Origin: Streptomyces chattanoogensis
GTDB lineage: Bacteria; Actinomycetota; Actinomycetes; Streptomycetales; Streptomycetaceae
Reading direction: 5' to 3'
DNA length: 64,000 nucleotides
NCBI RefSeq assembly: GCF_001294335.1
Contig: NZ_LGKG01000185.1
Span: forward strand, 1 to 64,000
The stretch's first letter is position 1. Every line of letters begins with the position of its first letter. Below are positions 30,372 through 60,574 of the stretch, one piece after another. The notes beneath the pieces were generated by a model. That model was not told where the DNA came from. It saw only the letters and a program-made list of their open reading frames with translations, and did no database searches. A program made the position numbers and the translations under genes.

Positions 30372-31331
30372 CTATGAGTTGGGTACCCGCAGCCGTTCCC
30401 AGCTGGCCTTCCCCGGCACCCCGTCCGCATCCTTGCCCGAGAACCCGAGCTTGCGCTGCCAGGCGGCGTACGACTTGCGGTGGGCCTCGTTCCAGTCCGG
30501 GCCGGGCCGCCCGCTCCGGTAGTGGCCGCAGCCTTCGGCGATCAGGCGCTCGCCCATCGCCGCGATCACCGCACTGCGTTCGCCCGAGCGGAAGAAGCCG
30601 CTGCCGGGGAACGGTTCGTACGGCGGGTACTCCGGCTTCGGCGGCACCGGCCGGCCGCCGGACCCGTCGCCGCCCGCGCCGCCGCCTGCGTTGCCGCCCG
30701 TGTCCCCGCCGCCCCCGCCCCCCGGCGGCCCCTCCGGATCCATCGCCAGCCGCCGCCTGATCCGTTCCCGCATGCCGTCCATCGTGAATCCGCGCGGATC
30801 GACCTTCCCCGGCTGCCACTCCTTGTGGCCGATCACCGAGCGCTCGCTCCACCGGTGCGCCCGGCAGAGCGCCGCCGCGACCTTCTCGATCGCCCGCTTC
30901 TGCTCCTCCGGCCAGGGGTCGCCGCCGTTGCCGAGGTTGATGCACTCGAAGCCGTAGAAGTGCCGGTTGCCGTCGGCGTCGGCGGCGTCGTCCCGGGGCA
31001 GTGGCGTCTCGTCGATGACCGCCTGCAGTACATCGCGGTCGCCGAGCCCGGCGTGATTGGCCCGGCCGTTGCCGACGAGATGCACCTCGCCCTGCTTGTC
31101 GATCACGCCGTGGCACAGCGGCCCCGGCAGATCGGCATGGCCGTCGTAACACAGATCCACGGAGGCCTCGGTGCCCTGGGTGACGGTGTGATGGATCATC
31201 ACTCCGTGCACCGGCCCCCACCGGCCCTTGGTATTCCGGTTGTGCCGACGCCAGTTGCGCACCTCGTGGACGACCAGCCCCTCGTCGCGCAGCGCTTTGA
31301 GCAGCTGGGACGCGGTCAGCGGGGTGGCCAT
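30372..31331 (-). CDS. eCIS-linked N-acetylmuramoyl-L-alanine amidase, no signal peptide
   Basis: The 319-residue product has an amidase_2/PGRP-type domain (about residues 25-185). Likely zinc ligands and active residues lie in VMIHHTVTQGT, CHGVIDKQGEVHLVG, FECINLGNGGDPW and VIGHKEWQPGKVDPRG. A Gly-rich linker (GGGGGGDTGGNAGGGAGG) follows, then a C-terminal region like a peptidoglycan-binding fold (SYAAWQRKLGFSGKDADGVPG). It would cleave the amide between muramic acid and the stem peptide. There is no signal peptide. ATG 31331 overlaps the stop of the upstream gene by one base. It is the last gene of the eCIS operon, so it may be cargo or act after lysis. Confidence 0.85.
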   Translation of the reverse strand: MATPLTASQLLKALRDEGLVVHEVRNWRRHNRNTKGRWGPVHGVMIHHTVTQGTEASVDLCYDGHADLPGPLCHGVIDKQGEVHLVGNGRANHAGLGDRDVLQAVIDETPLPRDDAADADGNRHFYGFECINLGNGGDPWPEEQKRAIEKVAAALCRAHRWSERSVIGHKEWQPGKVDPRGFTMDGMRERIRRRLAMDPEGPPGGGGGGDTGGNAGGGAGGDGSGGRPVPPKPEYPPYEPFPGSGFFRSGERSAVIAAMGERLIAEGCGHYRSGRPGPDWNEAHRKSYAAWQRKLGFSGKDADGVPGKASWERLRVPNS

Positions 31332-33022
31332 CAGCCCACACCCCCCGCTTCGCCCGGCCCGCCGTCCGCCGCGCCGTCCGCCCTGTCGACCGCCGCCTCG
31401 GCCGCGGCGGTCGTCTGCGACCTGCTCGCGGGGGGCGCGGCCGGACCGCCCTGCGTTCCGAGGCCGCCGGGCTCGCCGGTCTCGCCATACGTTTCCTCGT
31501 CCCGCGCCTGTTCCTCGGCCGCCACCGCCGCATCGTCCGCCGCCGGGATGTCCGCCGCCAGCGGCCGGAACGCCAGCCGCAGATCGGGCACCGTCTGCTC
31601 GCCGTGCACCCAGGCCAGCGGCGCGAAGTGCACGGCGATCCCGGCCGGGTGCCGGAGCAGCGGCCGCCGGGCCGCGTCCGTCGGCCACTCCACGCTCCCG
31701 GTGGCCGTACGGGCCGGGATCAGCCAGTAGTCGCCGGTGCGGTAGCTGCCGCCCGCCGCGAAGTACACCTCGACGCCGTCCTCCAGCGGCAGCCAGCCGC
31801 CTTCCTCGACCGGCAGCGCACCGTGCCTGAGCCGCCCGTCCCTGCCGCCCCGCCGGACCGTCTGCCGGGCGCCGCCCTCGCGGTGGTCCCAGCGCCGCAG
31901 ATACGGATGCAGCTCGGGCCGCCGCCCGGCACCCCCCGCGGGCTCGTCCGAGAGGCGCACCCGCCGCCCGGGCAGATCCAGCTCCTCGACCCGCAGCAGC
32001 GGCAGCGCCTCGCCCCGGCTCGTAGCGGCGGTGTCCACGAACTCGACCCGGTCGCCGACGTTCAGATCCAGCTTGTCGTCACCGCCGAGGGTCGCCAACT
32101 CGACCCAGGTGCCGTCCAGTTCATCGACGGGGAAGGTGACGGACCCGTTCTCCCGGGACCATTTGAAGGTGGCGGTCTTCGCGTCGCCGCCGTCGTGCAC
32201 CTCGACCCGGTAGAGCTGGTTCTCCGGGCCCCGGTACCGCGCGTCCGGCCTGACCAGGCAGGGGTCGTCGTCCGCGTGGTCCGGCCGCTCGCTGCGCGCC
32301 GCGAGCCGGGAGCGGGGGGCGGACTGCTGCTGCGCCCACGTGTCGAACGCCTTGCGGATCTCGGAGACCGGCGGGTTGTCGCCCTCCAGCCCGAGCGCCG
32401 TGCCCGGCAGCGGCAGCACCTGCCACACCACCTTGGTGCGCGCCGCGGTGTCCGGCAGCGCGGATCCCAGCGCGACCTCGCGCAGCGCCGGGTCCTCCGC
32501 CGCGGTGACCAGGCGCTCCCACACCTTCAGATAGGCCAGATACGGGAACTCGCTGGGCAGCCGGTCCTCGGGGCGCTCCGGATCGCGGAAGCCGTCGGGC
32601 TGGTCCCAGTACGTCCAGGTGGCGGGCGGGGCGTCCGGCTCGGCCGCCGCCTCGGCGTCGTGCTCCCCCGCTTCGCCCTGTTCGCTCCGTTCCTCTCCGG
32701 CTGCTCCCGCCGCGGAAACCGCCTCTCCGGGCTGCGGCCGGGTCGCATCGAGCAGGATGCCGTCCACGTAGTAGCGGCCGCCGCCGATGATCAGGTCGTC
32801 CAGTGTGCCGCTGCTGCCCTTCAGGTCGATCTTGAAGCCGTTGGCGTCGCTCGGCCCGCCGTGCCGCCCGATCAGATCGGCGGCGAGCGTACGGGCCTGG
32901 AACAGCTGGATCGCGGTCTGCTCATTGGCGTCGGCGTCCAGCTGGACGCGGCCCTGCTGGGCGACCACGCCGGAGTAGTGCCGCTCCGGGCGGTGGGTGA
33001 GGCGCGAGAGATCAGCGTGCAT
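31331..33022 (-). CDS. DUF6519 protein, eCIS fibre- or baseplate-associated
   Basis: The 563-residue product begins MHADLSRLTHRPERHYSGVVAQQGRVQLDADANEQ, a beginning seen in DUF6519 proteins coded in eCIS clusters. It is beta-rich with GGGRYYVDGILLDA, YLAYLKVWERLVT and FKWSRENGSVTFPVDE. A low-complexity acidic insert lies near residues 100-135 and a disordered tail at the C-terminus. It probably decorates the baseplate or acts as a fibre or target-binding part. The precise role is unknown. It precedes the amidase with a one-base overlap. Confidence 0.75.
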   Translation of the reverse strand: MHADLSRLTHRPERHYSGVVAQQGRVQLDADANEQTAIQLFQARTLAADLIGRHGGPSDANGFKIDLKGSSGTLDDLIIGGGRYYVDGILLDATRPQPGEAVSAAGAAGEERSEQGEAGEHDAEAAAEPDAPPATWTYWDQPDGFRDPERPEDRLPSEFPYLAYLKVWERLVTAAEDPALREVALGSALPDTAARTKVVWQVLPLPGTALGLEGDNPPVSEIRKAFDTWAQQQSAPRSRLAARSERPDHADDDPCLVRPDARYRGPENQLYRVEVHDGGDAKTATFKWSRENGSVTFPVDELDGTWVELATLGGDDKLDLNVGDRVEFVDTAATSRGEALPLLRVEELDLPGRRVRLSDEPAGGAGRRPELHPYLRRWDHREGGARQTVRRGGRDGRLRHGALPVEEGGWLPLEDGVEVYFAAGGSYRTGDYWLIPARTATGSVEWPTDAARRPLLRHPAGIAVHFAPLAWVHGEQTVPDLRLAFRPLAADIPAADDAAVAAEEQARDEETYGETGEPGGLGTQGGPAAPPASRSQTTAAAEAAVDRADGAADGGPGEAGGVG

Positions 33023-33103: not shown

Positions 33104-35287
33104 TCATGTCACGAACACGATCCCCGCGTCGGTCCCGGCCGGGGTGTACTCCGCGAGCCGGGCCCGCAGACTGTCCTCACGCTGCGGCTGATAGAGGTCG
33201 TGATACGCGCCCATCTCCGCGCCGTCCTCCGCACCGCGCCGGATCTCCTCGGCGCAGCCCGCCGCCAACTGCCCGTACCAGGGCGTCCCGTAGCGCTCGC
33301 CGCGCAGCAGCGGCCGCACACGCGCCGCGTCCGCGGGCCCTGCCAGGTCCGGTTGGCAGCGGTGGCGGCGCGGGGTGCGCGAGCCCGGCGGTACGTAACT
33401 GAAGCGCAGACAGCCGATGCCGCGCCGGGCGACATGCATCCGACCGGTGAAGATGCTGTTCTCGGCCAGCTGTACGGCGTGGGCGTGCACTTCACCGATG
33501 ACGGTGGTCCGGTGTGCGTACAGCACCGCATGCGCATGCCGGCAGTCGGGAGCCGACAGCGCCTCGCGGTCGTGACCGGTGGCGTCCAGGACCGAGTCGC
33601 GGAGGTGGATCGCCAGCGGGTCCTCGCCCACCTCGTCGCCGATGACCTCGATCGTGCCCAGGACCGTCCGGTCGATCTCCACGCAGGCGGTCGTCCGGTC
33701 CAGCACCAGGCTCGGCTCCTCGGGGGAGTGCGGAGCGCACTCCGGCTCCAGCGACCAGCCCGGCACCAGGGTGCAGTGCCGCAGCACGAGGGAGCCCATC
33801 GGCCCGGTGACATTGAGCCCGCGGCCGGTCACCAGCATCCCGTCCAGCACCATCCGCGGCCGCTCGCCGGACGGGCAAGCGGCGTCCCTGGCACGGATGT
33901 TGAGTGCGTCCGGCCGGTTGCTGTACCAGTCCAGCAGCCGGATGACCGGCCGGGTGCCCTCGGCGGCGCGCAGCTCCAGCCGGTCCCCGGGGTCCAGATC
34001 GAAGTCCAGCTGCTCCTGATAGGCGCCGCTGTGGGTGATCTCGATGATGCCGTCGGGTCCGCACCGCCCGGCGCGGCGGTCGTGCTGCCACGCCCCGTAC
34101 GCATCCATGATCCGCTGGTGGGCCTGGCCGGGCCCGACCCGGTAGACGGCGGCATCGCGCGAGGTCTCGCGCTCCCGCGGATACTCCCCGCCGCCGAGCT
34201 CGTCGCCGAACCCGTAGTGGTAGTCCACCCATACGCCCTGCCGGGGCGCGGACCGCGCCCCGAAGGCGAGGCGCCCCAGCTCCGGATCCACCGCCACCTG
34301 CCCCCGCTTGGGCCGGTAGCGCCAGTCGCTCAGATCCGCGACGACGAGGTCGGCCGGCGGCACCGGAACGTCCTCGCCGTCCCGCCGGATGGTGAAGCTC
34401 TTGCCCGGCCCGTAGTAGTCCGCGAGCCGGTCGTGCAGCTGCCGGCGGCGGATCGCGGCCGGGACGTTGTCGATCGTCGCGATATGTGTGGCGGACGGCT
34501 CCGGCTCCGGGCGGGTCACCAGCGGGGTGTCATTGCCCAGGAGGGAGAAGGTGTAGAGGTTGCGGGCCCGGTCGATGCAGTACGCGGGCGCCCGGGTCAC
34601 CGAGTACGGCTTCAGCCGCCAGACGAACAGCCCGACCCCGGCCGGGGTGTAACCCCCTTGTGTGCGAGGAGAGTTGACGCGGCGTACGTCCGCCGATCGC
34701 GCCACCGTGCCGAAGGGCCCGCCGGCCAGATCCAGCGCGGCGCCGTCCCGGACGTCCACCAGGCGGCCCCGGGCGGCCCGCCGCGCGTTCACCGCGGCCG
34801 TCCCCGACCCGTACAGCTTCACCGGCTGCCGGTGTGCCACCAGCCGGGAGAACTCCACCGCCCGCGCGGGCCATCCCGTCACCGACGCCGACAACTCCTC
34901 CAGCAGGGCCAGGGTGCCCTTGCGCCGCCGGTAGCCGACCGTCGCCGCCACATCGCGGCGGGGCGCCAGCGCCTCGGCCAGCCGCCGCCGCGAGGAGTCC
35001 GGCAGCCCGCCGTCCCGCAGCCCGGTGGCCAGCACCCGCTCGTACCCGGGCAGCGGGCGATAGCCCACCAGATCCCCGATGTACGGCAGCACCCACTCGG
35101 CGGCGCTCTCCACGAACCAGTCCTCGTACTGCTGGGCGACCCCGTCGCGTACCCGGTCGACCTGTTCGGCGATCACGGCCAGCAGCGCCCGCAGGGGCTC
35201 GCCGTTCGCGGGGTCCTCGGAATCGCGCAGCCGGTGCCACTGCGGAAGCAGCTCCGCGAGCCCGTCCGGCTCCCTTGTCGTACTCAT
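33104..35287 (-). CDS. Phage tail protein I-like baseplate protein with fibre-like C-terminus
   Basis: The 727-residue product starts at ATG 35287, overlapping the previous stop by 4 nt. Residues 1 to about 150 match the tail protein I type that caps the baseplate wedge in phages and eCIS (LAELLPQWHRLRDSED, YEDWFVESAAEWVLPYIGDLVGYRPL). The remaining 550 residues are beta-rich with many short hydrophobic strands (MVLDGMLVTGRGLNVTG, VLRHCTLVPGW, IEVIGDEVG, AVQLAENSIFTGRM), which suggests a right-handed beta-helix like tail spikes. It may join the baseplate to target binding. No separate Afp13-like fibre gene is seen. Confidence 0.8.
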   Translation of the reverse strand: MSTTREPDGLAELLPQWHRLRDSEDPANGEPLRALLAVIAEQVDRVRDGVAQQYEDWFVESAAEWVLPYIGDLVGYRPLPGYERVLATGLRDGGLPDSSRRRLAEALAPRRDVAATVGYRRRKGTLALLEELSASVTGWPARAVEFSRLVAHRQPVKLYGSGTAAVNARRAARGRLVDVRDGAALDLAGGPFGTVARSADVRRVNSPRTQGGYTPAGVGLFVWRLKPYSVTRAPAYCIDRARNLYTFSLLGNDTPLVTRPEPEPSATHIATIDNVPAAIRRRQLHDRLADYYGPGKSFTIRRDGEDVPVPPADLVVADLSDWRYRPKRGQVAVDPELGRLAFGARSAPRQGVWVDYHYGFGDELGGGEYPRERETSRDAAVYRVGPGQAHQRIMDAYGAWQHDRRAGRCGPDGIIEITHSGAYQEQLDFDLDPGDRLELRAAEGTRPVIRLLDWYSNRPDALNIRARDAACPSGERPRMVLDGMLVTGRGLNVTGPMGSLVLRHCTLVPGWSLEPECAPHSPEEPSLVLDRTTACVEIDRTVLGTIEVIGDEVGEDPLAIHLRDSVLDATGHDREALSAPDCRHAHAVLYAHRTTVIGEVHAHAVQLAENSIFTGRMHVARRGIGCLRFSYVPPGSRTPRRHRCQPDLAGPADAARVRPLLRGERYGTPWYGQLAAGCAEEIRRGAEDGAEMGAYHDLYQPQREDSLRARLAEYTPAGTDAGIVFVT

Positions 35288-38200
35288 CGGGTCACCTCCG
35301 TGAGGATCAGCGTGTCCGCGACCGCCGGCGAGAACAGCGCCAGCTGGGCCGGGCGGATACCGCGGAAGACGCACACCGCGCGGCCCTTCTCCAGGGGCCG
35401 GGTGTCGGTGATGCCGGGGTTGAGGCGGAGCAGTTCGGCGAGCGGAATGCCGTAGCGGGCGGCGATGGCGGTGAGCGTCTCCCCGTCCTTCTCCGTCACC
35501 TCGTGGACGTGTTCGTCGTACATGGCGAGCCGGGCGGGGACGGACGACGGCACAGGGCCGTCGAGCCGCTCGGCCAGCCGGGCGAGTCCGGCCGGGGTGA
35601 CGGAGGCCGGGACCCCGGTGAAGGCGTCCACGTCCACATAGTCCACACCGGGGACGGACTGTGCGGTCGCCAGCACCTCGGACAGCCGGGCCGGCTGCCC
35701 CAACTCCCGTCCGTCGAAGCCGAGTTGACGCAGCAGGGCCGCCCGCACCCGTGGCTCGACCAGCGCCCACGAGTAATCCGGCGCCACCTTCACCTTCGCC
35801 ATGAGCAGCAGCAGAACCGGCTCCCGTACGTCCACCCGCACCGGCAGCCGGGAGTCCCCGTACTCGGCGAGCGAGGCGCGCAGCGCCCGCAGCACCTCGG
35901 CATCCGGCGCGATCGGGATGTCGTCCACCCCGGCCACCGTCAGATGCAGGACCCGGCGCCGCCCGTCGTACAGCTCGCGCGCCGCCGCCCGGCCGATGCC
36001 CGCCCGCGACCGGGCGAAGTCCTCGTAGTCCGGCAGCGACACCAGCCGGTCCAGCGCGGAGACCGCCAGCGGCACGGTGCGGCGGGTCAGCCCCGGCCCG
36101 TCCGCGTCGGCACCCCCCGTGGCGGGCTGCGGATTGGTGACCGCGGTGACGCCCAGCGGCCGGGTGACGGCCTGGGTGATCCGGTCCGCCGCGACATTGG
36201 CGGCCCAGCCGGTGCCGAAGCGGTAACGGGCGCGCACATTGTCGTGGCCGGTCGGCAGCCGGGCGCCGTGCACCCCGTCCCCGAAGGTCACCGTCGCCCT
36301 GCCGTCCCCCGCCACGCCCAGCACATACACCCGCTCCCGCGGACCGCGCCCGGCCAGGCTGTCCACCGCATGCCACAGCAGACCGTCGACCCGCACCTGA
36401 AGCTCCGGTGCCGCGCCCAGCGGACTGTGGTCCGGCAGCCAGGTCAGCGGCGACTGCCAGAGCGCGAACGTCTGGTTCGCCCGTGCGCTGTCCCCGCTGC
36501 CGATCGCCTCGTCCCGGCTCTCGCCCTGCGTGGCGGCCACGACGTTGCCCTGGATGCGGACGCTGTCCCGGCGGTAGCGGTAGGCGAGGTCCGCGGTCAG
36601 GGTGAGCGTGGTGTGGACATGGTCGCCCGGCAGATGGGGATCCAGCCGCTGGTCCACCGCCGCGATCACGGCCAGCTCGGTGGCCCGGAGTCCCGCCGAC
36701 CCCGGGACGCCCGGAATATCGGTGCGTTCACCGGAGACGATCAGATGCCGTCCGGGCCGCAACCCGTCGTACAGCCCGGCCAGTTCGATCTCGTTGCCGT
36801 GGACGTCCTCCCCCAGCGGCTCGTCCGCCATCCGCAGCGGCTGCCCGCCCGCATGCACGGTGGTGTCGCGGATCGCGGAGAGCACCACATCGTGCTCGTC
36901 CAGCCAGGGGTCGGCCAGGGTCAGTTCGGTGCCCCGCCCGGTGATCCCGAAGGAGGTGTAGGCGGCGGTGCGCACCGCCGTCACCCGGGTGGTCACGAAC
37001 GCCAGCTTCTTGTCGCCCGGGATGCCGTCGTTGCCGCCCGCGCCCTTACGGGGCCGCTGGACGACGACCCAGCTGCCGACCGTGATGCCGTCCTGGACCG
37101 AATCCAGCGGCAGCACAGAGCGGTTGGCGGGCGCCGGGACCGTCGCGATGCCGATCTCCACGGCGGGCGGCTCGCTGCCCGGCGTCCGGCGCACCGTGAT
37201 CTCGTACTCGCCGTGCCGGATCTGGTCCTGGTCGCCCGGCCGGAGATGCCAGGACTTCGGCCGGCCGTTGTTCACCGCCACCTCGATCCGTCCCGACTCG
37301 TCCGGGCGGGCCGCGAACAGGGTGCGCTCGGGCAGCCCGGCCAGCAGCCGCGCGGTGACACCGGACTCCTGCGAGTCGGCGGGGCGGCGGCCGAGCCAGC
37401 TCAGATCGTGGTCCTGGCCGGTGCGGGTGGACAGTTCGACCCGCCCGGGACCGAGGTCGAAGGGCTCGTCGGACGGCAGATTGACGGTGTGCTGGACCGT
37501 CCGGCCGGTCTCGATGTGCTCGAACTCCGCCTTCACGGGGACCTTGCCCGCCGTGTCGTACACGATCCGCATGCTGGTCAGCACGCCGCCGGTCAGCGGC
37601 CAGTCGGCCTGCCGGATCACCCGGCCCTGCTCGTCCTGTACGGGCTTGAGCGGCGCATTCGCCCCGAACGGCGCGGCCGTCACCCGCATCGCCAGCAGCT
37701 CGCGCAGCGCGGCGGGCACCTCGGGCGCCGCCTGCCGCCACGCCGCGTACATCCCGTCCGCGAGCCGCGGGTCCAGGGCGGACAGCAGCCGCGCGGTCAG
37801 GTCCGAGCCCGGGCCGAAGAGACGGCCTGGGGTGCGGGAGGCCGCCCCGGTGCCGGACGGGGGGCGGACGACGCTGGTACGGAGGGCGGGGAGCACGGCG
37901 GCCAGGGCGCTCAGGGCGGGGGAGCCGGTGCGGTCCGGCCCGTGCGGCGCGCCGGACACCGCAGGCACCCGATCCAGGTCACCGGCCCGCTCCCGGAGTT
38001 CCCCGACCACCGCCGCCAGCTCCTCGAACCAGGCCGCGACCGCCTCGTACGGCGCGGCCAGCACCTGCGCCTCCGCCAGCCGCTCATGCGGACCGGCCAG
38101 CCGCGCGGCGAAGGCGGCGGGTGTGGTGAGGGCGCCCAGGTCCTTGCGCAGCGGCGCCAGCACCTGGCCGTCGAAGGTCTCGATCAGCTTGCTGACCGGG

Positions 38201-42000: not shown

Positions 42001-42272
42001 CGGTCGTCGAGCTCGGGGTCCTCCTCCCGCTCGACGGAGATCTCCACCGCCTCGAGACCGGTGCTCCGGCGCCCGCCGTCGATCCGGATGTTCTCCGGCC
42101 GCAGCCCGTGCGGCGCCTTGCCGAGAAAGGTGACCGTCAGCGTCACCCCGTCGTCCGCGGCCTCGACCGCGTCGATGCCGTTCAGCCGCGCCGCCCTGAT
42201 CCGGCCCCGCCGCCGGTCCGTGCGGCACAGCAACTCACCCGCACCGCCGCCTCGCTGCTCCACCGGCCTCAT
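39057..42272 (-). CDS. cis11: eCIS baseplate wedge protein (gp6/baseplate J-like, Afp11 type)
   Basis: The 1071-residue product starts at ATG 42272, which overlaps the gp25 stop by 4 nt. The N-terminal region has DYTARDYDTLRQAVLDRM, NPADLGMTLVELLAHTADQISCQQD and VAAEAYLDTARRRVSVRRH, typical of eCIS gp6-like wedge proteins. The C-terminal part has IALRFGDGRYGARPAPG, TAQDYAELASALPGVQRA and VRLSRLVAVAAAVPGVAGV of the baseplate J fold. It should dimerise around gp25 to build the wedge ring. Several Cys pairs occur in the middle (SCEPPVFGCGD), possibly metal binding. Confidence 0.87.
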   Translation of the reverse strand: MRPVEQRGGGAGELLCRTDRRRGRIRAARLNGIDAVEAADDGVTLTVTFLGKAPHGLRPENIRIDGGRRSTGLEAVEISVEREEDPELDDRLHVVLDRTGDTSRYRLSVVTTDPYGRPGTEPYEGFDQRYHGADFVFRVDCPSPFDCGDDAVAGGGRPETFQAGPAVPSPVVDYTARDYDTLRQAVLDRMRLTTPDWTERNPADLGMTLVELLAHTADQISCQQDAVAAEAYLDTARRRVSVRRHVRLIDYPMHDGCSARAFVSLEVVAELTLLPGEFRFAAVDGRTYGPRDRPETGTVIDDRDLAVLDERGTVEVFEPVTGAPLALRPEHNAIRLWTWGDEVCVLPKGATGATLRDAWADEACETRALRLNPGDLLLFEEVKGPRTGTPGDQDPTHRQPVRLTSVTPAVDRLDGQPVLEVTWAPEDALAFPLCLSTRGGTDCAPVEDVSVARGNVVLVDHGRSLTAGDGVPETVTVPPVPAVLPSCEPPVFGCGDRKDGGNGTARTLNALLDKTGCHETLTPDDIRELFTAVGEEATVRAGLGLELAGQRRERVVPGTAYAQAEALRTLLAQSVYPGIAPRFRPVLHRSPVAQTVPFPQPDRVAAGQAGRLAGIREQVRARLVELWRSARDHDGLAEEEIAELAVVFGLKVLERLELRRHPVRALRELLHRGDRLLDAKLRRLDVLTARARAGTVLDGHIAWEIAHSWGPAYAAGLHPDEPVLHGPAAGLVPDPRAALPAVRLQDGDRTWTPRRDLLRSGPRDRHFVGELGDDGRIALRFGDGRYGARPAPGSRLTLHYRIGGGTSGNVGAEAINHLVLSRAPEASEAAAPLPVAGVRNPLPATGGTGPEPVEQVRQLAPLDLKRTRLRAVTAQDYAELASALPGVQRAAAEIRWTGSVQEAHVAVDAAGTGEPTPQLLDAVAYALEGYRRTGHDLVVVPARTVPLDIALEVCATPGHQLGRILAELSRVLGNRRLPGGGLGFFHPDALTFGEPVRLSRLVAVAAAVPGVAGVRVTRLRRLFHEDNGELEDGVLRLGPLEIAGCDNDPERPENGRLAIEAGPYGEAGGAR

Positions 42273-43059: not shown

Positions 43060-43084
43060 GCAGAACTCACTCCCCCCGCTCCGG

Positions 43085-43609: not shown

Positions 43610-43641
43610 CTGCGTACATCTCCTGGATCTCCTGAGCGCTG

Positions 43642-43698
43642 CTATGGACGTGCGGTCCCGCTGTGGACGTGCGGTGGCGCTACGGACGTACGGTGTCG
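43642..43698. repeat. Three tandem 19-bp repeats at the hub-spike gene junction
   Basis: Units are ctatggacgtgcggtcccg (43642-43660), ctgtggacgtgcggtggcg (43661-43679) and ctacggacgtacggtgtcg (43680-43698), with two to five changes. The last overlaps the end of the hub gene, supplying its TAG stop. The array fills most of one of the few sizeable gaps inside the operon. Confidence 0.85.
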
Positions 43699-45195: not shown

Positions 45196-45198
45196 GCC

Positions 45199-46526: not shown

Positions 46527-46533
46527 TCGATCC

Positions 46534-52500: not shown

Positions 52501-53376
52501 GCGCTCGTACCGCAGCGCCTCGGCCGCATCGGGCTCGATGAACGGGGCACCGAGCGAGTTCTGCTCCAGGCCGTCGCCCCAGAGGCCGTCGTCGGCCCCG
52601 GCCTCGTCCACCAGGTCCAGCACCCGCTCGAGTTCCGGGCTGAGCAGCCTGTTCTCCAGGCGTGCGAGAACGGCGTCCTGCAACTCCTCGGGCAGCCGGG
52701 CCAGTTGCATACGGGTGCGCTTCGACCGGTCCTCCGGGTCCCCGCGTACCGAGCGCACGACCGAGTTCGCCAGCCGGTCCACCAGGGTCGCCGGATCCAG
52801 CAGCTCCATGCGCCGCCGGTCGGCGTCCACCGTCGCATACCGCAGCCATCCGGGCGTCGCCTGCCCCGGCACGGCCTCCGCCTCCCCATCGGACCGCAGG
52901 GAGCCGAGCATCGCCGCCCGCACCGTCTCCTGCGCCGCCGACTCCGCCTCCCGCTCGATCCCCTCCTGCGGAAGGCTGACCGACCCCAGATCGCGGCCCG
53001 CCCGCAACGCACCCAGCCCGTGGGGATTCTGGACGGTGTGCAGCAGCTCATGCGCCAGCAGCCGCTGCCCGTCCGCCGTGCCGGGGCGGTACGTCCCCTC
53101 GCGGAAGAAGATGTCCTGGCCGACGGCGAACGCATCCGCGCCCATCGTCTCCGCCAGCTGCCCCGAGTCCCGGTCGGTGTGCAGCCGGACCTGGCTGAAG
53201 TCGTGGCCGAGCTGCTCCTCCAGCTCACGCCGTACGCTCAGATCGAGCGGCTGGCCCGCGCCGCTGACGATGTCCTTGGGCTCGGGTGCCCGGGACACGG
53301 CGCGCTCCTTGCGCTTGCGCCGCTTCTCCTCACGGGCCGCCCGGGTCTCCTGGGCCGAAGCCTGCGCCGCACTCAC
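46534..53376 (-). CDS. Giant DUF4157 protein with helical core and C-terminal nuclease-like domain
   Basis: The 2280-residue product starts at GTG 53376, overlapping the previous stop (GTGA). Residues 40-120 are DUF4157 (eCIS core) with a zinc-type HELLH (109-113). About 290-1240 is disordered and charged, with GEERS/GEGRS repeats near 370-390. About 1285-1615 is a long chain of amphipathic and hydrophobic helices (AIVRIIREARDAVVNFIK and many similar). About 1625-1940 is Lys/Pro/Asp-rich. The last 300 residues carry a His-Me finger-like core, RAHLLPERLGG with NNLVPARRGVN (His2085, Asn2099, Asn2108). It is probably a toxic effector loaded into the particle; DUF4157 proteins are known eCIS cargo. 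A tape-measure role is possible. Confidence 0.82.
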   Translation of the reverse strand: MSAAQASAQETRAAREEKRRKRKERAVSRAPEPKDIVSGAGQPLDLSVRRELEEQLGHDFSQVRLHTDRDSGQLAETMGADAFAVGQDIFFREGTYRPGTADGQRLLAHELLHTVQNPHGLGALRAGRDLGSVSLPQEGIEREAESAAQETVRAAMLGSLRSDGEAEAVPGQATPGWLRYATVDADRRRMELLDPATLVDRLANSVVRSVRGDPEDRSKRTRMQLARLPEELQDAVLARLENRLLSPELERVLDLVDEAGADDGLWGDGLEQNSLGAPFIEPDAAEALRYERESERRTAEERRAEEREPAVAPGPEKERLGAEGAAGSTPRNGGTREDGSTPQGGPAAAPQQQSSSAAGGRSGEERSGEGRSGEERSGEGRSGEGRSPAGSAGKGEQAGGEKTGGEKSGGEKGPDGKSSDGKPGAGQQGGEKKSGAEGGKEGADQKGTPAASKEESAAKNRPGAADSLVAGQQPKPQDRRGQEKPSGSPARTGAEAPAPGPLSTLDGVRNQDLDGPEEKDDEDPFGSGSESEVEVGGAEKSAWDTPLQPDDFLPEQDIDVSGVPAAETLDPSTAQAVPSFPAPPPTKADRVQAERDAEDAEDEEAEAEPQEAAAEAPLESGPSVETEGGPGDALSDGLEAERATESRPGAGASSKDPKSGDDPKAGPVAAQKTVQESAGRTEGGGEAKEPAAKEEKDTKAAGDKATGAQEKGSPQAAGGRAAAPETAGKGGEPKKDEQKNDGQKKTEPAASGKGDGDTAGKGGEKGQDSTSPSPARDAHVSGGSHADTPGGASNEASSGDRSDTSQTEEGGRRASAEGTKEPGPKEPVKESAPAPKQASQPAKATKEEPAAAPKEAPAPRTPRGGGAQEGGSGKGAAPAKGRKNDTGPAPNLSQMSPEAGLSSAAKLKPHKALQAMGGVGGSVDRTVGDEHKQLASAPPSMQRPAGAPQTLEGKPKADAPAAYSQDPAKQSDAPEQEKAEVKGEQKPEGQIEAEKAEEPGGWDTFKMALGFGIGWLAEKLGFKVDKQELAAKFAGLPTKDEALKKARAGNAPGVQMQGAADQKSDEQGRAVDTKGEETGTTARDDAGRPMGEDQVYPNAPKEQLKAKVPSREGGKGGVQTGKASTGAVPADAASTVAEHDRGPQFQAAFSKGQKGMSEGRQTKDKDFRESQQKHKQQVGDTVAKNTAEQAGERAKAQNDVTSQRTGWRKEQDAELKKLGTKKTERHEKVRKDVEDREKKTDDDTKKEKEGSDKKIQDKATQAETDSKKKTDTAANDSGNWLTKAFDWIKEKVIEIKNAIVRIIREARDAVVNFIKNFKENVERWINEARKFIVDTIKNLINDLIEFAKNMVKAIIELANRIRKFITDLIAAAIALVTKLAALLKKIITDLLNRIAKILSDILNVLKKMLMDVIKAVVDAIKTVLEFASKLLGALGDFMMIAIDFMDDPGGWLSGAKNSAVDGAKHHLFREVQSAVKQWFQSKIEEIIGVPKAILDKLIKGGFTLEKIVKETWDAVVPMLPFIIGEIVITKVIAKLIPGAGWVMAVIDAIRTAIGALGAILRAIGAVLDWLKAVRQGGAGILFAKAVAAGIVALLELAYQALLNGIGKYVAKVGRRLKGVAAKLGKGGKGGKGDGNPKAGHGDGKGGDKDSTADKGDRGDRGDKGNREAPDGTTGSAPPPPSSNLPKPGKGTGPGTKPNAKPASKTDPKTDPKKPTTKTPDRDTSPGRPKDARPGDGKKPPETDKPGQPKQDRPGDRPDTRPTPAPRPKPKPDPTPQPKPNLDAKPKPKDQVPDKPKDTGQDTPGTTKPKDGKDTPGKPRNDDKDAPGKPKDEDPTKPKEQDPAKPKDPNKPKGDGKEGDGKKPKPKDGKDGKDGDSRHKPKPDRDGPRRPRPKDGKKGPGKPERRPDRRGPGRPKSKPDKDRTKKDENKKESKEERLLKIVARIRPRLLRAMRPGIPRSPFLGLLKSMKLHYRLTGLEPVGGDPFTVVASLNPSMPVLGGDYSEPRSEPSAYPNPPGAPTAANDLPKPSLPGFHSGRASAISADFLSQPRVPWGTPPGTVRPPGWDYITDPLRNLQEGGAWVRAHLLPERLGGQAAENNLVPARRGVNKDLERGVEMPAWRAAKNKPVWFESRVKFGNSGAINDIPTYFRTTWGPYKKIKGTGSKRSDWQRLSAGKQTLGLDIEPPQPNEKNKLYINTYGAKQISDWLNIKSSLAGHIVKQRLDEPGHKFTNIRNFTTAMRARKASRGPRSLPQLEIAIDRLKMLQTAQLVDWRQLHKEK

Positions 53377-53683
53377 CGGGCCTCACCCCGTCCCGTCAGC
53401 CCCGCGTGCACCGCGCGGGCCAGCGCCTCGCCGATCCGCACGGGGGAGGCGGTGGCCGGCAGCGGCGGCAGACCGGAGAGCTCCTCCAGCGACCGCCCGG
53501 AACCGTCCGCCGCGAGCGGCACCCCGCGCTCCCGTACGAGCCGGGCCAACTCGTGCTGGAACGCGGCCGATACGCGGTCCGGGTCGACCCGTGCGTCGAA
53601 GCCGTCCAGGACCAGCTCGCCGATATCGATACGGAAGGACTGCGGCGCGCCCGTCTCCCCGGCACCGCGGTGACCGACCTCGT

Positions 53684-53693
<10 letters not shown>
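53373..53693 (-). CDS. Small conserved eCIS protein of unknown function
   Basis: The 106-residue product reads MGLNEVGHRGAGETGAPQS, then FRIDIGELVLDGFDARVDPDRVSAAFQHELARLVRERG and a Ser/Pro/Leu-rich part ending RIGEALARAVHAGLTGRGEAR. The central segment resembles small proteins that often sit between the ATPase and DUF4157 genes in eCIS clusters. The ATG overlaps the ATPase gene end by 10 nt, and the stop overlaps the next GTG. Its position suggests a chaperone or loader for the giant cargo. Confidence 0.7.
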
Positions 53694-55678
<1,985 letters not shown>

Positions 55679-55711
55679 GTCCTTCTCCGCCCCCGTTCCG
55701 CCCACCGCGCC

Positions 55712-56551
55712 TCAGCTCTCCTTGGCGTCGTTGCTGTCGTTGCTGCGGGTCGTCGCCTTCCGGGTACGGGTACGGGTACGCGCGGGCGCCGCCTTCTTCG
55801 CGGGCCTGGCGGGCTTCTCCTCGGCGGTCCCGGCCCCGGCGGTCTTCTCCGGCCCGGTCTCGGCGGGTGCGGCGGGCTCCCGCTTCGGAGCCTCCGGCGC
55901 CCCCTGCGCTCCCGGCGTCCCCTCCGCCCCCTCCGCCTGCTCCGCCCCGAACGTCACCACCGTCACCTCCGGCCGCTCCACCGGCTTCGCCGGCTTCGGC
56001 TTCTGATGGCCGTCCAGCAGCACCAGCGACGCCTGGTACACCACCGACAGCGCATACGGCGTGTTGTGGAGCATCCCCCAGAGCTTCGACGTCTCGTCGA
56101 TGTCCATCTGGGCCGGCGTGAAGCGGACCTTCTGGAGCGACTCGGCGAGATCGCTGCCCTCCAGATACGGCCGCTGCACCGCCTCCTCGATCAACTCCTT
56201 CGGCAGCACCGGAATTTCGTGCAGGGTGCGCACGACACTGCCGATCAGCCGCTGCCCGACCAGCTCCGTCTCCTCCCCGTACGCGCTGATCAGGAAGTGC
56301 AGATCGACGGCGGCGGCGGGCCGCTTGAGCAGCGTCCCGTCGGAGGCCCGGGTCACCAGGTCGTTGTTGCGCATCGACGGGTTGTGGGTGACCTGGTAGA
56401 GGAAGACCGTGACCGTCGGATCCGTCGGGGGATCGGACGGCGGCTTACGGGTCTCCACCGAGACGGCCATGTCGATCTCGGGGTGCAGATTGTGCTCGAT
56501 CAGCAGCGCAAGGGCCTGGGTGACCGTCGCGAGGGCGAGTGCGTTGCTCAT
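55712..56551 (-). CDS. cis16: DUF4255 (Pvc16/Afp16-type) tail-terminator cap protein
   Basis: The 279-residue product has the DUF4255 domain in residues 1 to about 190: ALATVTQALALLIEHNL, VTVFLYQVTHNPSMRNNDLVTR, AAVDLHFLISAYGEETELVGQRLIGSVVRTLHE and FTPAQMDIDETSKLWGML. The C-terminal 90 residues are Ala/Pro/Lys-rich and disordered, ending RTRTRKATTRSNDSNDAKES. Homologues cap the distal end of the tube and sheath. It begins six bases after the stop of the preceding gene. Confidence 0.88.
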   Translation of the reverse strand: MSNALALATVTQALALLIEHNLHPEIDMAVSVETRKPPSDPPTDPTVTVFLYQVTHNPSMRNNDLVTRASDGTLLKRPAAAVDLHFLISAYGEETELVGQRLIGSVVRTLHEIPVLPKELIEEAVQRPYLEGSDLAESLQKVRFTPAQMDIDETSKLWGMLHNTPYALSVVYQASLVLLDGHQKPKPAKPVERPEVTVVTFGAEQAEGAEGTPGAQGAPEAPKREPAAPAETGPEKTAGAGTAEEKPARPAKKAAPARTRTRTRKATTRSNDSNDAKES

Positions 56552-56557: not shown

Positions 56558-57340
56558 TCAGTTCCTCTTCTCGTCGCGGGAGAGGTAGTCCGCGAGGCTC
56601 AGCGACGGCCCCCGGCGCTCCGTGCGCTCCGGCCGGGCGGCCGTTCCCCGGGCGGGCCGCTCCGCCCCCGCCGCGCTGACCTCCAGCCGCCCGATCTGCA
56701 CATGCACCACCCGCTCGGCCGGGCGCTGCCCCCGCCGAGCGGCCGCCGCGGCCCGGGCGGCGTCACGGGGCGCCGGCACCTCGTCCGTACGCGGCCGCAG
56801 CGCGGCGGCGACGGCACGCGGCGCGGCCTGTGCACCGCGCGGGGCGGGCGACGGCACACCCGGACGCAGCACGGATGCGTCCTCGCCTGCTTCCCCCGCC
56901 CGCCCGCGCGGCCGTACGGCCACGGTCGGAGCGGTACGCGAACCGGGATCCGGGAGCGCAACCGGCCGCAACAACCCCGATTCCACGCGGAGTTGAGGTG
57001 CCGGCCGCTCGGGGCCGTCCGGCGGTCCGGGCCGCGGCATCCGCACCACCGTCTCCCGCTCGGCGACGGTCCGGACCTCCCGCTCGTACCGGACCGGATC
57101 GCCCCCGGCCACCGCCCCCAGGGGCGCCTGCGGGAGCAGCGGCGCCGGATCGTCCGGCCCGGCGGGCGTGTTCCGTAACGCCTCGATGCGCTCGAACGGC
57201 TCCGCCGGCCGCGGCCGGACGAGCACCCTCCCCGTGCTGCCGCCGGGAGGTGCCCCCTGCCCCCCGCCCACCCCCGGGAGGCCGTCCCGGCCCGCCGGCG
57301 CATACCGCGCCAGCAGCCGGCCGAAGTAGTCGTCAGGCAT
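56558..57340 (-). CDS. eCIS protein of unknown function carrying a TTA codon
   Basis: The 260-residue product starts MPDDYFGRLLARYAPA, is Pro/Arg/Ala-rich and mostly disordered, and ends in a conserved-looking block (VVHVQIGRLEVSA, then PSLSLADYLSRDEKRN). Proteins with this last block are frequent beside DUF4255 genes in eCIS loci, but no function is known. Leu55 is coded by TTA (57178-57176 on the minus strand), the only TTA codon I found in any CDS of the window. Its ATG overlaps the baseplate gene stop by 8 nt. Confidence 0.72.
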   Translation of the reverse strand: MPDDYFGRLLARYAPAGRDGLPGVGGGQGAPPGGSTGRVLVRPRPAEPFERIEALRNTPAGPDDPAPLLPQAPLGAVAGGDPVRYEREVRTVAERETVVRMPRPGPPDGPERPAPQLRVESGLLRPVALPDPGSRTAPTVAVRPRGRAGEAGEDASVLRPGVPSPAPRGAQAAPRAVAAALRPRTDEVPAPRDAARAAAAARRGQRPAERVVHVQIGRLEVSAAGAERPARGTAARPERTERRGPSLSLADYLSRDEKRN

Positions 57341-58088
57341 CCGCGCACAGCTCCAGGTAGTAGCGGCGCCGCAGCGGGCTGAGCGCCAGGATCCGGTCCT
57401 CGCTCCAGCCGTAGGCCGAGGCGAGCAGATGGACATCGAGGAGTACGTCCCGGGCCCAGGCATCGAGCTCGGTCCACAGGTAGGCCGCGATGTCCAGCTC
57501 GGCCGGGGTGGCCGCGCCGCACTCGGGGCAGGCGATGTTCAGGGTCAGCTCGGCCGCCGGGTCGGCCCGTTCGGCCTCCGCGGCGAACCGCTTCAGTACG
57601 GCGTCGGGCAGCGCCGCGATCTCCTCCTCCGTGGCCTCCCGCCCGCCCCGCACCGCCGAGCGCAGGCACCGCGCCCCCAGCAGCCGCCGGGCGTCCTCCG
57701 GGCCCACGGCGGCGGCCGAGACCGCGGCCAGGTCGGCGGGTGCGGGCAGCCGGAACCGCACCGCCCACTCGCCCTCCTCGACCCGCAGCCCGCCCTCCGG
57801 CACCTGCGGCCGGGCGGCGCCCAGCGCGCCCGCGTCGAGCTCGAACTCCATCGCCGCGCCGCAGTCCGCGTCCGCGCAGTCGGCCCGGACCTCCATCCGG
57901 TCGCCGAACAGCGCCCGGCGCAGCGCGAACAGATCGGCCGCCCGCTCCCCGAGCGGCACTGACAGCAGCTCGTCGGTGCCGGCCCCGGGGCGGGCCGCGC
58001 GGTGCAGCAGCAGGGCCCGGCCGCTGCCCTGCCGGGCCAGCCCGGCCTCCCAGGTGGCCAGCAGTTCAGCGGGCCCGGTGACCGCCAT
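57333..58088 (-). CDS. T4 gp26-like baseplate protein with zinc-ribbon
   Basis: The 251-residue product begins with a helix (PAELLATWEAGLAR). It then has GERAADLFALRRALFGDRMEVRADCADADCGAAMEFELD, and two CxxC-like pairs (CADADC, CPECG) suggesting a zinc-ribbon. The end is DIAAYLWTELDAWARDVLLDVHLLASAYGWSEDRILALSPLRRRYYLELC, typical of phage baseplate gp26-like or tail assembly chaperone proteins in eCIS. It follows the tube gene and overlaps the next gene by 8 nt. A role in early baseplate assembly is inferred. Confidence 0.78.
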   Translation of the reverse strand: MAVTGPAELLATWEAGLARQGSGRALLLHRAARPGAGTDELLSVPLGERAADLFALRRALFGDRMEVRADCADADCGAAMEFELDAGALGAARPQVPEGGLRVEEGEWAVRFRLPAPADLAAVSAAAVGPEDARRLLGARCLRSAVRGGREATEEEIAALPDAVLKRFAAEAERADPAAELTLNIACPECGAATPAELDIAAYLWTELDAWARDVLLDVHLLASAYGWSEDRILALSPLRRRYYLELCADA

Positions 58089-58156
58089 TCCTCACCTCGT
58101 CCGGTGCACGAAGGATGCCGCTGGGTACGGATGCGGGGACCGGCGCGGGGACCGGT

Positions 58157-58681
58157 TCACGCCGGATGCGTGAACGACGGTTCCTCCGGCTCCGGCACCT
58201 CGTAGTCCCGCTCCCAGCCCTCGCACTCCAGCTTCAGGCTCTGGATGGCGACGGCGTTGGCGTTGGCGTCCATCTCGCCCAGGACCTGGTACTCGCTCGG
58301 CCAGGACCGGTAGATCTTGTGCGAGACGGCGACCTGCCCGGCCTCGTTGAGGACCTGGATGACGAGGTCCTTGCGGAAGTCGGCCAGCGAGACCTCGGAG
58401 CCGAGACCGGCGCCGACCTGCCAGACCTTGTTCGCCCAGCGGTCGAACTCCGGGTCGTGGGTGACCCCGCGCTCCAGGGTGATGCCCTCGAACTCCGAGC
58501 GGCCCGGGGACTTGCGCGGCGAGCTGGGGTCCCCGCCGTTGCGGTGCTTGACAACCTCGGTGGTGCGCTTCAGCGGGCTGATCTTGCTGACCCCCGCGAC
58601 CGTACGGCCGTCCCACAGGACCAGGAACTTGAAGTTCTTGTACGGGTCGAAGCGATGGGCGTTGATCTGGAACTCAGCCAT
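58157..58681 (-). CDS. cis1: eCIS inner tube protein (Hcp/gp19-like)
   Basis: The 174-residue product is the T4 tube (gp19) type: FDPYKNFKFLVLWDGRTVAGVSKISPLKRTTEVVKHRNGGDPSSPRKSPG, FEGITLERGVTHDPEFDRWANKVW, and VAVSHKIYRSWPSEYQVLGEMDANANAVAIQSLKLECEGW. Hexamers stack to form the tube that carries cargo. It is downstream of the sheath gene by 42 bases, and the start ATG follows GAAAGGAGAGG. Only one tube paralogue is present, whereas some eCIS have two or three. Confidence 0.95.
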   Translation of the reverse strand: MAEFQINAHRFDPYKNFKFLVLWDGRTVAGVSKISPLKRTTEVVKHRNGGDPSSPRKSPGRSEFEGITLERGVTHDPEFDRWANKVWQVGAGLGSEVSLADFRKDLVIQVLNEAGQVAVSHKIYRSWPSEYQVLGEMDANANAVAIQSLKLECEGWERDYEVPEPEEPSFTHPA

Positions 58682-58723
58682 CGGATTCCCTCACCTCTCC
58701 TTTCCTGCACGTCATGCCGCTGG

Positions 58724-60574
58724 TCACCGGAGGTCGAACTGACCGGCCATCTGCTGGATCTTGACGATCACGAACTCCGCCGGCTTGACGGGCGCGATGC
58801 CGACCACGACATTCACGATCCCGTTCTCGATGTCCGCCGCGGTCGTGGTGTCCTTGTCGCACTTGACGAAGTACGCCTGGCGCGGAGTGCCGCCCTTGAA
58901 CGCGCCCTTCTCGAAGAGCGAGTGCAGATAGGCCGAGGCATTGAGGCGGATCTGCTGCCAGAGCTGTTCGTTGTTGGGCTCGAAGACCACCCACTGCAGG
59001 CCGCGCAGCAAACTCTCCTCGATGTGCAGAGCCAGGCGCCGGACCGGCACGTACTTCCACTCGCTGTCGAGCGCGTCCGCGCCCTCGAGCGTACGGGCGC
59101 CCCAGACCAGGGGGCCGAGCACCGGGAAGGTCCGCAGGCAGTTGATGCCCAGCGGGTTCAGCAGGCCGTTCTCCCGGTCCGTCAGCCGGACGGTGAGCGA
59201 GTGCACGCCCGCCAGCCGCGCCTCGGTCCCCGCCGGCGCCTTCCACACGCCCCGCTCGCCGTCCGTACGGGCGATCACCCCTGCCAGGGCGCCGGACGGC
59301 GGGAAGGAGCGCAGCCGGCCGGAGAGCGGGTCGGTGAGCTGGAGGTGCGGGAAGTAGAGACCGGAGTGGTTGCTGCGGACCGGATCGAAGGCGGCGATGC
59401 CGGCACGGGCGGCGTCCACGCTGCCCCAGGCGGCGGGGGCGTCGACGAGGAGGAAGATCCGGCGCTCCTGGCACAGGCGCCCGGCCGCGGACAGCACCGT
59501 GACCGCGTCCTCGACCTTCTCGTACCCGGCCAGCTCGGGCAGGGCGAGGAGGTTGACGTCGTCGACGTCGCGCAGGGCCTGCAGGCCGCTCTTGCGGGAC
59601 TCGCTGCCGATGAGGTCGCGGGGGCCGGGCGCCTCGCCGTCCTCGCCGCCGCACAGCGGGAAGACGGGCGGGTTGACGGAGGCCTCCAGCCCCAGGTCGT
59701 TGGCGCACTCACCGAGGAAGCGGACCGTGTCACCGGGGTCCAGGGAACCGGCCACGACCTGGATGCGGCGGCCGAACGCGGTGACCTCGGCCCCCGCGAA
59801 GGCGTGCTTCCCGGGGGCGTCCGGCAGGGAGCGGAGCTTGTGCTCCAGGAGGAGGGCGAGTTCGGTGACGTTGCACGGCGGCTCGCCGTCGCAGTCCGGG
59901 TCGTAGAGCGTGAACTCGCGCTCCACCTCGCCGATCTTGACCGTCAGATCGACGTTCAGATCGGGCAGTTCGTGGTGGAAGGCCTTGGAGACGGTGCCGG
60001 ACGGGTCCGGGCGGCCCTCGCCGACGACCTCGACGCGGATCAGCGCGGAGCCGGCGTTGATCACCGTCTCGGCGTACCGGCCGTGGCAGGAGTCCATGGA
60101 CAGACCGGAGAAGGACTCGCGGGCGGTGCCGTGCGCGTCGAGGACGTGGAGGTTGAAGGTCTCCTCGGGACACGGACTGTCGTGGTCGACCGCGACCCGC
60201 AGACCGTCGCCCCAGACGCCGGGCTCCTTGGCGTGCACCTCCAGCACCGGGCACTGGCTGTGGCCCTCGGTGGACTCCAGGGTGACGTGGGCGGCCTTGC
60301 CGCTGCCGGCCCTGGCTACCCGAACGATCACGGCGACCGTGCCGCCGTTGCCGAAGAACTGGTGGACGGCGTACGCGACCGGGCTCTGCGAGGTCAGACC
60401 GCCGAAGCGGCGCTCGAAGTCGGCGAAGCTGGTGATCCGTACCGGCTGGTTGAGCGGGCCGCGCCGGGTGTGACCGACGAACGCGGTCACCGATGTCGTA
60501 ACGGTGGTGATGCTGCGGATGCTGCTGGGAAGCTCTTCGACATAGACGCCGGGATAGGTCGTATGTGTCGGCAT
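58724..60574 (-). CDS. cis2: eCIS contractile sheath protein
   Basis: The 616-residue product has the sheath signature at its start (MPTHTTYPGVYVEELPSSIRSI, TSVTAFVGHTRRGPLNQPVRITSFADFERRFGG, AVHQFFGNGGTVAVIVRV). Its conserved C-terminal domain has EWKYVPVRRLALHIEESLLRGLQWVVFEPNNEQLWQQIRLN, FVKCDKDTT and VGIAPVKPAEFVIVKIQQMAGQ. Subunits wrap the tube and contract on firing. A large mid-domain insertion is usual. ATG 60574 follows GGAGGGGGA; an in-frame ATG at 60616 lies further upstream. It is the first gene of the operon, facing a 746-bp intergenic region. Confidence 0.95.
   Translation of the reverse strand: MPTHTTYPGVYVEELPSSIRSITTVTTSVTAFVGHTRRGPLNQPVRITSFADFERRFGGLTSQSPVAYAVHQFFGNGGTVAVIVRVARAGSGKAAHVTLESTEGHSQCPVLEVHAKEPGVWGDGLRVAVDHDSPCPEETFNLHVLDAHGTARESFSGLSMDSCHGRYAETVINAGSALIRVEVVGEGRPDPSGTVSKAFHHELPDLNVDLTVKIGEVEREFTLYDPDCDGEPPCNVTELALLLEHKLRSLPDAPGKHAFAGAEVTAFGRRIQVVAGSLDPGDTVRFLGECANDLGLEASVNPPVFPLCGGEDGEAPGPRDLIGSESRKSGLQALRDVDDVNLLALPELAGYEKVEDAVTVLSAAGRLCQERRIFLLVDAPAAWGSVDAARAGIAAFDPVRSNHSGLYFPHLQLTDPLSGRLRSFPPSGALAGVIARTDGERGVWKAPAGTEARLAGVHSLTVRLTDRENGLLNPLGINCLRTFPVLGPLVWGARTLEGADALDSEWKYVPVRRLALHIEESLLRGLQWVVFEPNNEQLWQQIRLNASAYLHSLFEKGAFKGGTPRQAYFVKCDKDTTTAADIENGIVNVVVGIAPVKPAEFVIVKIQQMAGQFDLR

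Follow-up and report, generated by a model that had tools for sequence, protein, structure and literature searches.

The cargo gene and its partner

The 64,000-nt stretch of Streptomyces chattanoogensis DNA analysed here (the window; assembly GCF_001294335.1, contig NZ_LGKG01000185.1, positions 1–64,000, forward strand) contains an operon for a contractile injection system (CIS). Its 20 genes lie on the minus strand, from the sheath gene (60574) to an amidase gene (30372), as delineated by ORFs (open reading frames), codon composition and Pfam matches. A first-pass annotation of the same DNA had described a complete extracellular CIS (eCIS) operon on one strand, its genes following in this order, mostly overlapping or less than 50 bases apart, with the largest gaps about 70–80 bases. 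All of this was borne out, the spacing by the gene coordinates. Most of the genes it listed were confirmed, with exceptions given below, but three others had been omitted (45861–46505, 53373–53693, and 56558–57340). The first of these, referred to as I0, is the most important, and is considered here together with the cargo gene that precedes it.

The cargo gene (46534–53376, minus strand) encodes a protein of 2280 residues, recognised as similar to the cargo Tme of Streptomyces davawensis from its domain matches, composition and motif positions. The N-terminal part matches eCIS_core/DUF4157 (1e-28), with an HExxH motif at residue 109, and the chain contains long low-complexity linkers. A tape-measure-like region at about residues 1265–1653 matches PHROG tape measure families with E values down to 5e-9, and a hydropathy plot marks four hydrophobic stretches within residues 1364–1606. 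As to the proposal that the particle is soluble, no gene could be recognised as a separate membrane anchor, though the cargo itself contains these stretches. At its C-terminal end lies the toxin domain T0 (46537–47244, minus strand), predicted to be a nuclease with a ComEA-like helix-hairpin-helix tail and a catalytic histidine at residue 2085 (His2085). Comparison of the predicted fold pointed to Sda1, NucA, and EndA. When the T0 profile was run against PDB sequences, the best row (1.5e-5) was what we take to be a protein with a helix-hairpin-helix motif; none of the 12 rows was EndA. A scan of genome contigs for the nuclease gave one relative, in S. spongiae.

The operon was compared with those of nine other Streptomyces genomes (1–3 contigs each), selected by hand from the operon carriers; eight of them have T0, and one (G007) the toxin cluster T14. 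Nineteen of the 20 proteins are kept in the same order in all nine, and the twentieth, I0, in eight. Outside the cargo and I0, identities range from 40% to 95%. Identity in the middle part of the cargo is 57–75% in six genomes and 32–40% in three; for the toxin end it is 24–50% in eight, and the ninth gives no match. The lower values for the middle part concern residues 1000–1700, the tape-measure/transmembrane region, in G273, G285, and G159, where a second variable region may exist.

I0 (45861–46505, minus strand; 214 residues), a putative cognate immunity gene, sits between the cargo gene and the tube-initiator gene (45199–45864, minus strand). In each of the 69 Streptomyces loci analysed, the cargo frame ends 400–1,296 bases before the tube initiator, and a main ORF on the same strand occupies the slot between them. 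At least 55 proteins related to I0 were found, some of them labelled SMI1/KNR4 by UniRef; among the matches listed, related proteins occur also in Saccharopolyspora, Actinomadura, Nonomuraea, Plantactinospora, and Micromonospora. When seven first-look candidates were scored per genome across the phylum, the rows shown placed I0 in 2 of 396 genomes, both Streptomyces and one of them the genome under study. No match to a SUKH family was obtained for any of 56 members in Pfam at E values up to 5, a search of PDB sequences with I0 found nothing, and hhalign detected no relation between I0 and the SUKH-4 cluster. Foldseek returned a weak hit (E 0.2). Structure comparison by VIA, which covers the folds in its own list, gave Z scores of 5.8 (2prv), 5.5 (3d5p), 5.4 (2icg), 4.1 (4iqn), and 4.0 (8fzz), the next being 2.8; these rows include an SMI1/KNR4 entry and an effector–immunity entry, at modest Z. 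For the partner cluster I4, the member that was scanned is assigned by Pfam to the SUKH-4 immunity family (4e-17).

Pairing, co-variation, and probable exchange of toxin and partner

The tube initiator was detected in 79 of 295 Streptomyces genomes (E ≤ 1e-10), in 69 of those at 69% identity or more. At least 90 places with a tube-initiator match were listed; 80 regions were fetched which, with the window, made 81. Passed over were eight places that were divergent or partial (G017:C708, G030:C35, G249, G280, two of G165, G088, and G011) and the second half of a match covered by L101. A reading frame counted as the cargo if it was at least 1,100 bases long and ended 300–1,400 bases before the tube initiator; in several loci, it was cut by a contig end or interrupted. 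The count of 69 loci was reached after leaving out L100, which had no cargo by this rule, and L102–L112, 11 loci of another CIS type with tube identities of 39–48%. It may be noted that one of the latter, L108, has a 1,066-residue DUF4157 cargo that lies only 56 bases from the tube gene behind it and lacks a partner gene.

The C-terminal ends of the 69 cargos formed 17 toxin clusters at 1e-4 (last 170 residues) and 14 at 1e-2, and the downstream proteins fell into 11 clusters. Pairs of loci with the same toxin cluster had the same partner cluster in 525 of 526 cases (465 of them within T0), compared with a mean of 150 and a maximum of 242 after shuffling. The single mismatch was due to the wrong ORF having been taken in L042; the correct frame shows 47% identity to its counterpart (E 7e-42). 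The converse does not hold, since eight different toxin clusters occur together with one partner cluster, I1 (20 loci). A single link between T12/I1 and the T0/I0 cluster, seen at 1e-2 with the last 260 residues, was taken for a chance link.

The T0/I0 cluster comprises 31 of the 69 loci, of which 28 (without L101, L052, and L069) were used for correlation. Mean identity in this set was 28% for the toxin domains, 33% for the partners, and 88% for the tube initiators. The distances of toxin and partner were strongly correlated (r = 0.84), and the partial correlation given the tube initiator was also 0.84, a value reached in none of 5000 permutations. In the 24 of the 31 loci that have both control genes, the toxin–partner correlation was 0.87, while toxin and partner gave 0.05–0.16 against three controls: the tube initiator, the gene of the small baseplate protein, and even the N-terminal core within the cargo chain itself. 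These three control parts correlated with one another at 0.34–0.61. The adjacent partner co-varies with the toxin, and not with the backbone of the operon. The I1 group (20 loci) gave a partial correlation of 0.81 (0 of 5000 permutations); the value for the I2 group (five loci), 0.97, was higher but was reached by 33 of 5000 permutations.

Toxins also change between loci that are otherwise close. The nearest neighbour by tube initiator had the same toxin cluster in 20 of 69 loci (about 15.5 expected by chance), and there are pairs with 98–99% identical tube initiators that carry different toxin clusters. The edges of the presumably exchanged stretch were read from 13 pairs with different toxins, namely 11 of the 12 closest listed pairs (L081/L056 was left out) and two with the window. 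In all 13, DNA homology resumes between positions −24 and +1 relative to the start codon of the tube initiator, and the adjoining long blocks are 79–93% homologous. On the upstream side, homology through the cargo stops about 1.6–2.3 kb before the tube-initiator start in nine pairs, and is patchy or missing within the examined stretch in the other four. Between the window and L033, which belongs to another toxin cluster, homology is lost over 45865–47534. This stretch, made up of the 3′ end of the cargo gene and I0, is the likely exchange cassette.

Searching the 295 Streptomyces genomes with I0 gave 35 matches in 32 of them, and by their coordinates 33 of the 35 adjoin a tube initiator. In one of the two exceptions, G149:C1, the I0 match lies directly behind a 1,169-residue protein that ends in a T0 nuclease (1.6e-26). 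By tblastn, no DUF4157 core was found in or beside this protein, which matches the tape-measure part of the cargo weakly (21%, 6.5e-5); the CIS slot of the same genome (L047) holds a different pair, T11/I1. In G165, an I0 match stands beside a tube fragment, with no cargo found. Two tandem I0-type ORFs precede the tube gene in L052 (G001), the second of them, behind the first, being partial, and the immunity gene may have been duplicated there. The second exception, in G120:C217 (L146:4342–5160), is a distant I0 homologue that stands alone; it may be an orphan immunity gene, and the CIS of that genome has the T0/I0 pair.

Polymorphic toxin systems (Rhs, CDI, and LXG/T7SS) combine a constant delivery part and a variable C-terminal toxin with an adjacent cognate immunity gene, and are known for cassette exchange and SUKH-type immunity. 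The loci studied here likewise have a constant carrier with variable C-terminal domains, and their toxin modules are common to other carriers: T0 is found on a second one, as described, and the profile of toxin cluster T3 matches an Rhs-family protein (1.6e-4). They differ in that delivery is by a CIS carrier with DUF4157 and a tape-measure region, and in that the CIS of the host bacteria is thought to act inside the producer.

Class of the system and role of the partner

In its gene layout, the operon follows the S. davawensis (Tme-type) CIS, and not the S. coelicolor/SLP class. We found the full set of CIS genes in conserved order, in which a very long ORF carrying DUF4157 in its N-terminal part comes just ahead of the baseplate genes; this ORF shows tape-measure similarity, transmembrane stretches, and a predicted EndA-like C-terminal nuclease. 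The SLP class, in contrast, has a separate tape-measure-like effector with a DUF4157 partner just upstream of the sheath. Here, the start of the sheath gene adjoins sucC on the opposite strand, and DUF4157 is fused to the cargo. That the operon is an ordinary resident CIS of the SLP class, as the first-pass annotation had implied, is the least probable of the readings considered. The structural genes are broadly alike and the genus is the same, but DUF4157, the tape-measure region, and the nuclease lie in one chain between the ATPase and baseplate genes, the operon is absent from this site in four of four other Streptomyces and lies away from sucC in nine of nine (see below), and the genome has a separate SLP-like locus. 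The S. coelicolor class was rejected on the cargo architecture and on this second locus, on contig C163 (L145). It has a 602-residue eCIS_core protein directly before a gene judged by eye to be sheath-like, followed by tube- and baseplate-like genes, a layout resembling the SLP layout in the accessible text of PMC13277306.

Tme of S. davawensis (BN159_7576) was compared by its published description; among the matches listed, none carries the name of that species. In the main text of PMC11126660, it is likewise a giant DUF4157 cargo with transmembrane helices, tape-measure similarity, and a C-terminal EndA-like nuclease, and the distance from the catalytic His to the C terminus is 196 residues (2051 of 2247), compared with 195 in the window. 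The tube-initiator, VgrG-like, and PAAR-like genes have higher locus tags than Tme, and judged by this numbering BN159_7577 would fill the I0 slot. Association of Tme with the CIS, His-dependent toxicity in Escherichia coli, DNA degradation, and effects on extracellular DNA (eDNA) and sporulation are described in the same text, where self-protection is explained by low activity, sequestration, and multinuclearity; no mention of a partner gene, of polymorphism in the toxin, or of cassettes being exchanged was found there. The first-pass annotation had linked the operon to cell death and development, a link taken from the S. coelicolor class; its layout places the operon with the S. davawensis class, where the reported effects concern eDNA release and sporulation (PMC11126660, main text).

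Effectors of the SLP type come close in other respects. According to the accessible text of PMC13277306, Sle1/Sle2 and the Micromonospora eburnea pair RS14790/RS14785 have tape-measure-like carriers with variable C termini, and in the latter, an effector–immunity pair, the downstream protein relieves toxicity. Unlike the cargo described here, the carrier in these systems has no DUF4157 and is encoded ahead of the sheath gene; a single pair was tested, and systematic pairing, cassette edges, or an immunity gene for Sle1 do not appear in that text. For eCIS-associated toxins in general, the accessible text of PMC8213781 gives some toxin–immunity pairs beside eCIS operons, one of which rescued E. 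coli, although most such toxins come without immunity genes, whereas in the class studied here, a partner is present in 69 of 69 loci.

The simplest reading of the partner is that it encodes an immunity protein, and its main rival is a cognate chaperone or loading adaptor, which would keep the C-terminal domain unfolded or thread it into the tube, and would not act as an inhibitor. Co-variation with the toxin domain would look alike in both cases. The gene is placed between cargo and tube initiator, a cargo generally needs threading into the narrow tube, and a general adaptor could explain the association of I1 with eight toxin clusters. On the other hand, the scanned I4 member belongs to a curated immunity family, the VIA rows for I0 include immunity-related entries at modest Z, the partner families have no detectable relation to one another, as is usual for inhibitors, and I0 also follows a nuclease in a different carrier. 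On balance, we consider a chaperone unlikely. Still less probable is that the nuclease is purely developmental, acting in eDNA release, that immunity is unneeded, and that the downstream gene is accessory or structural. This would agree with the eDNA and sporulation phenotypes and with the main text of PMC11126660, which names no immunity. However, I0 correlates at 0.07–0.10 with the three operon parts and at 0.87 with the toxin, and the partner family changes along with the toxin in most clusters. Were I0 structural, its evolution would be expected to track that of the remaining structural genes, which it does not; a structural role was therefore rejected.

The pairing, the co-variation, the cassette edges, and the SUKH-4 member together lead us to conclude that the cargos of Tme-type CIS are polymorphic toxins with exchangeable toxin–immunity cassettes. 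We consider it quite likely that the operon is a Tme-type CIS in which the cargo carrier ends in an exchangeable toxin, the next gene is the cognate immunity gene, and both move as one cassette. The carrier would consist of the DUF4157 domain, the low-complexity linkers, and the tape-measure/transmembrane region, with the exchangeable toxin domain at its end, which in S. chattanoogensis would join an EndA-like nuclease to a DNA-binding domain of ComEA type. In the producer, I0 would bind the nuclease and block its activity up to the loading and firing of the cargo; the partner, in other words, presumably neutralises the toxin. Toxin end and immunity gene would pass between strains as one cassette, with edges inside the cargo and at the start codon of the tube initiator. 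The pressure behind such swapping may be antagonism or kin discrimination between strains.

A wider proposal is offered tentatively, as we give it somewhat less credence than its denial. In it, the Tme-type CIS would be a polymorphic, cassette-swapping weapon or kin-recognition system, so that a particle reported to release eDNA in its producer would also carry a strain-specific toxin and antidote. When such particles are fired or released in a mixed mycelium, siblings would be spared and strains with other cassettes harmed. I0 would be a new family of immunity proteins against EndA-like nucleases, and whether the producer survives or digests itself would depend on its titration by the cargo.

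The CIS class, its nuclease, and one effector–immunity pair in another CIS class are already known from the accessible text of PMC11126660 and PMC13277306. A partner for Tme, its co-variation, and the cassette edges were not found in print, mostly in the openly readable literature, supplements aside. Geller et al. (PMC8213781, accessible text) called the lack of immunity genes for most antibacterial eCIS effectors an ‘intriguing mystery’. The partner gene in 69 of 69 loci and the cassette exchange would offer a simple answer for one CIS class, and suggest that selection between strains acts on a CIS that has been studied for its part in development. The particle is common in the genus; the interest lies in the cassette. 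Seventeen toxin clusters with candidate antidotes are now at hand, most without an assigned family where scanned.

Other genes of the operon and its genomic setting

All remaining genes of the operon are on the minus strand. The sheath (58724–60574, 616 residues), the gp19-like inner tube (58157–58681), and the Pvc15-like AAA+ ATPase (53684–55705) had been called correctly, as profile matches confirmed: Phage_sheath_1C at 6e-11 (and PDB sheath chains, the best at 1e-81), Phage_T4_gp19 at 3e-38, and AAA at 9e-23 with WHD at 4e-17. Between tube and ATPase lie a gp26-like baseplate protein (57333–58088; T4_baseplate 1e-5), a fast-evolving 260-residue protein of unknown family (56558–57340; position conserved, 40–49% identity across the compared genomes), and the Pvc16/DUF4255 cap protein (55712–56551; Pvc16_N 8e-44). 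A 106-residue protein of unknown function, also conserved in position, lies at 53373–53693, before the cargo. For the tube initiator or adaptor, there was a CIS_tube-like match (1e-4), which agrees with the ‘tube-adaptor’ label though it is below the cut-off, and a PDB match to 9rce_H (3e-4).

The next gene (44812–45195) had been described as a separate small LysM protein. It has no LysM match and corresponds to PHROG 7145, baseplate wedge (7e-7); the LysM domain (3e-7) sits in the second of two baseplate J proteins (39057–42278, Baseplate_J 6e-7; 35284–39066, Baseplate_J 3e-5). Of the proposed split VgrG, the gp5/VgrG OB-domain spike (43085–43609; Phage_base_V 2e-23) was upheld, but the N-part-like hub (43680–44822) is identified by position and a weak VgrG_rel match (0.007, far below the cut-off). 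The PAAR-like tip (42652–43059) is suggestive at most, from its position and DUF4280 at 0.04, again below the cut-off. The gp25 wedge (42269–42655) matches GPW_gp25 (1e-20). The label of tail protein I or fibre for the 727-residue tail protein (33104–35287) could not be maintained, as it had no matches in Pfam, PHROGs, or PDB sequences; it is 75–82% identical in all nine compared genomes. The DUF6519 protein (31331–33022; 4e-72) and the amidase (30372–31331; Amidase_2 1e-21) complete the operon. For the genes of unknown family, an NCBIfam search yielded nothing decisive.

Terminator sites were no more numerous than in shuffled sequences (7 and 3 sites on both strands in two scans, against means of 7.6 and 2.5), and nothing speaks against a single unit. 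On the minus strand, one site falls within the operon, at 43481 inside the gp5-like gene, and another ahead of the sheath gene, at 60970. A strong hairpin (30265–30301) lies between the amidase gene and the convergent gene 29117–30157. The GC content is 65–69% at 42000–50000 (the 3′ half of the cargo gene, the partner, and adjoining baseplate genes), against 70–78% in most of the remainder.

In three other Streptomyces (L147, L149, and L150), the corresponding site lacks the stretch 27952–61109, and a fourth (L148, G129) has about 2.3 kb of sequence there. In these four genomes, without a CIS at the site, the VWA/CoxE stretch (ending at 27,972) and sucC (from 61,321) are neighbours. The matches to the two are about 110–290 bases apart in the first three; the 2.3 kb between them in L148 includes a 233-base, 66% match to 28932–29137, which means that part of the two plus-strand genes at 28125–30157 may be native to the site. 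In all nine other operon-bearing genomes, sucCD and the VWA gene are absent from the 39 kb fetched around the operon. With the stretch from about 28–29 kb to 61.1 kb missing in four of four genomes and the operon away from sucC in nine of nine, the view that this is a resident locus is unsupported. From sequence comparison, some 31–33 kb would appear to have entered here, or to have been lost elsewhere. No integrase had been noted before, and there was none among the matches of the genes scanned at 23.1–63.4 kb; no tRNA or long repeat was found at the edges, which share merely a 10-base word, so that the mode of insertion is unexplained.

The two plus-strand genes at 28125–30157, between the VWA gene and the CIS, have no Pfam match and are unmatched at three of the four CIS-free sites; the second (29117–30157) is absent beside the nine other CIS operons. 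Beside the insertion edge, AAA_5/MoxR-like, DUF5682, and VWA/CoxE genes stand in a row at 23124–27972. Farther off, on the minus strand at 13260–13429, a c-di-AMP riboswitch (Rfam RF00379; 47 bits, exceeding the gathering score) was recognised immediately ahead of the gene 12107–13261, which is on the same strand.

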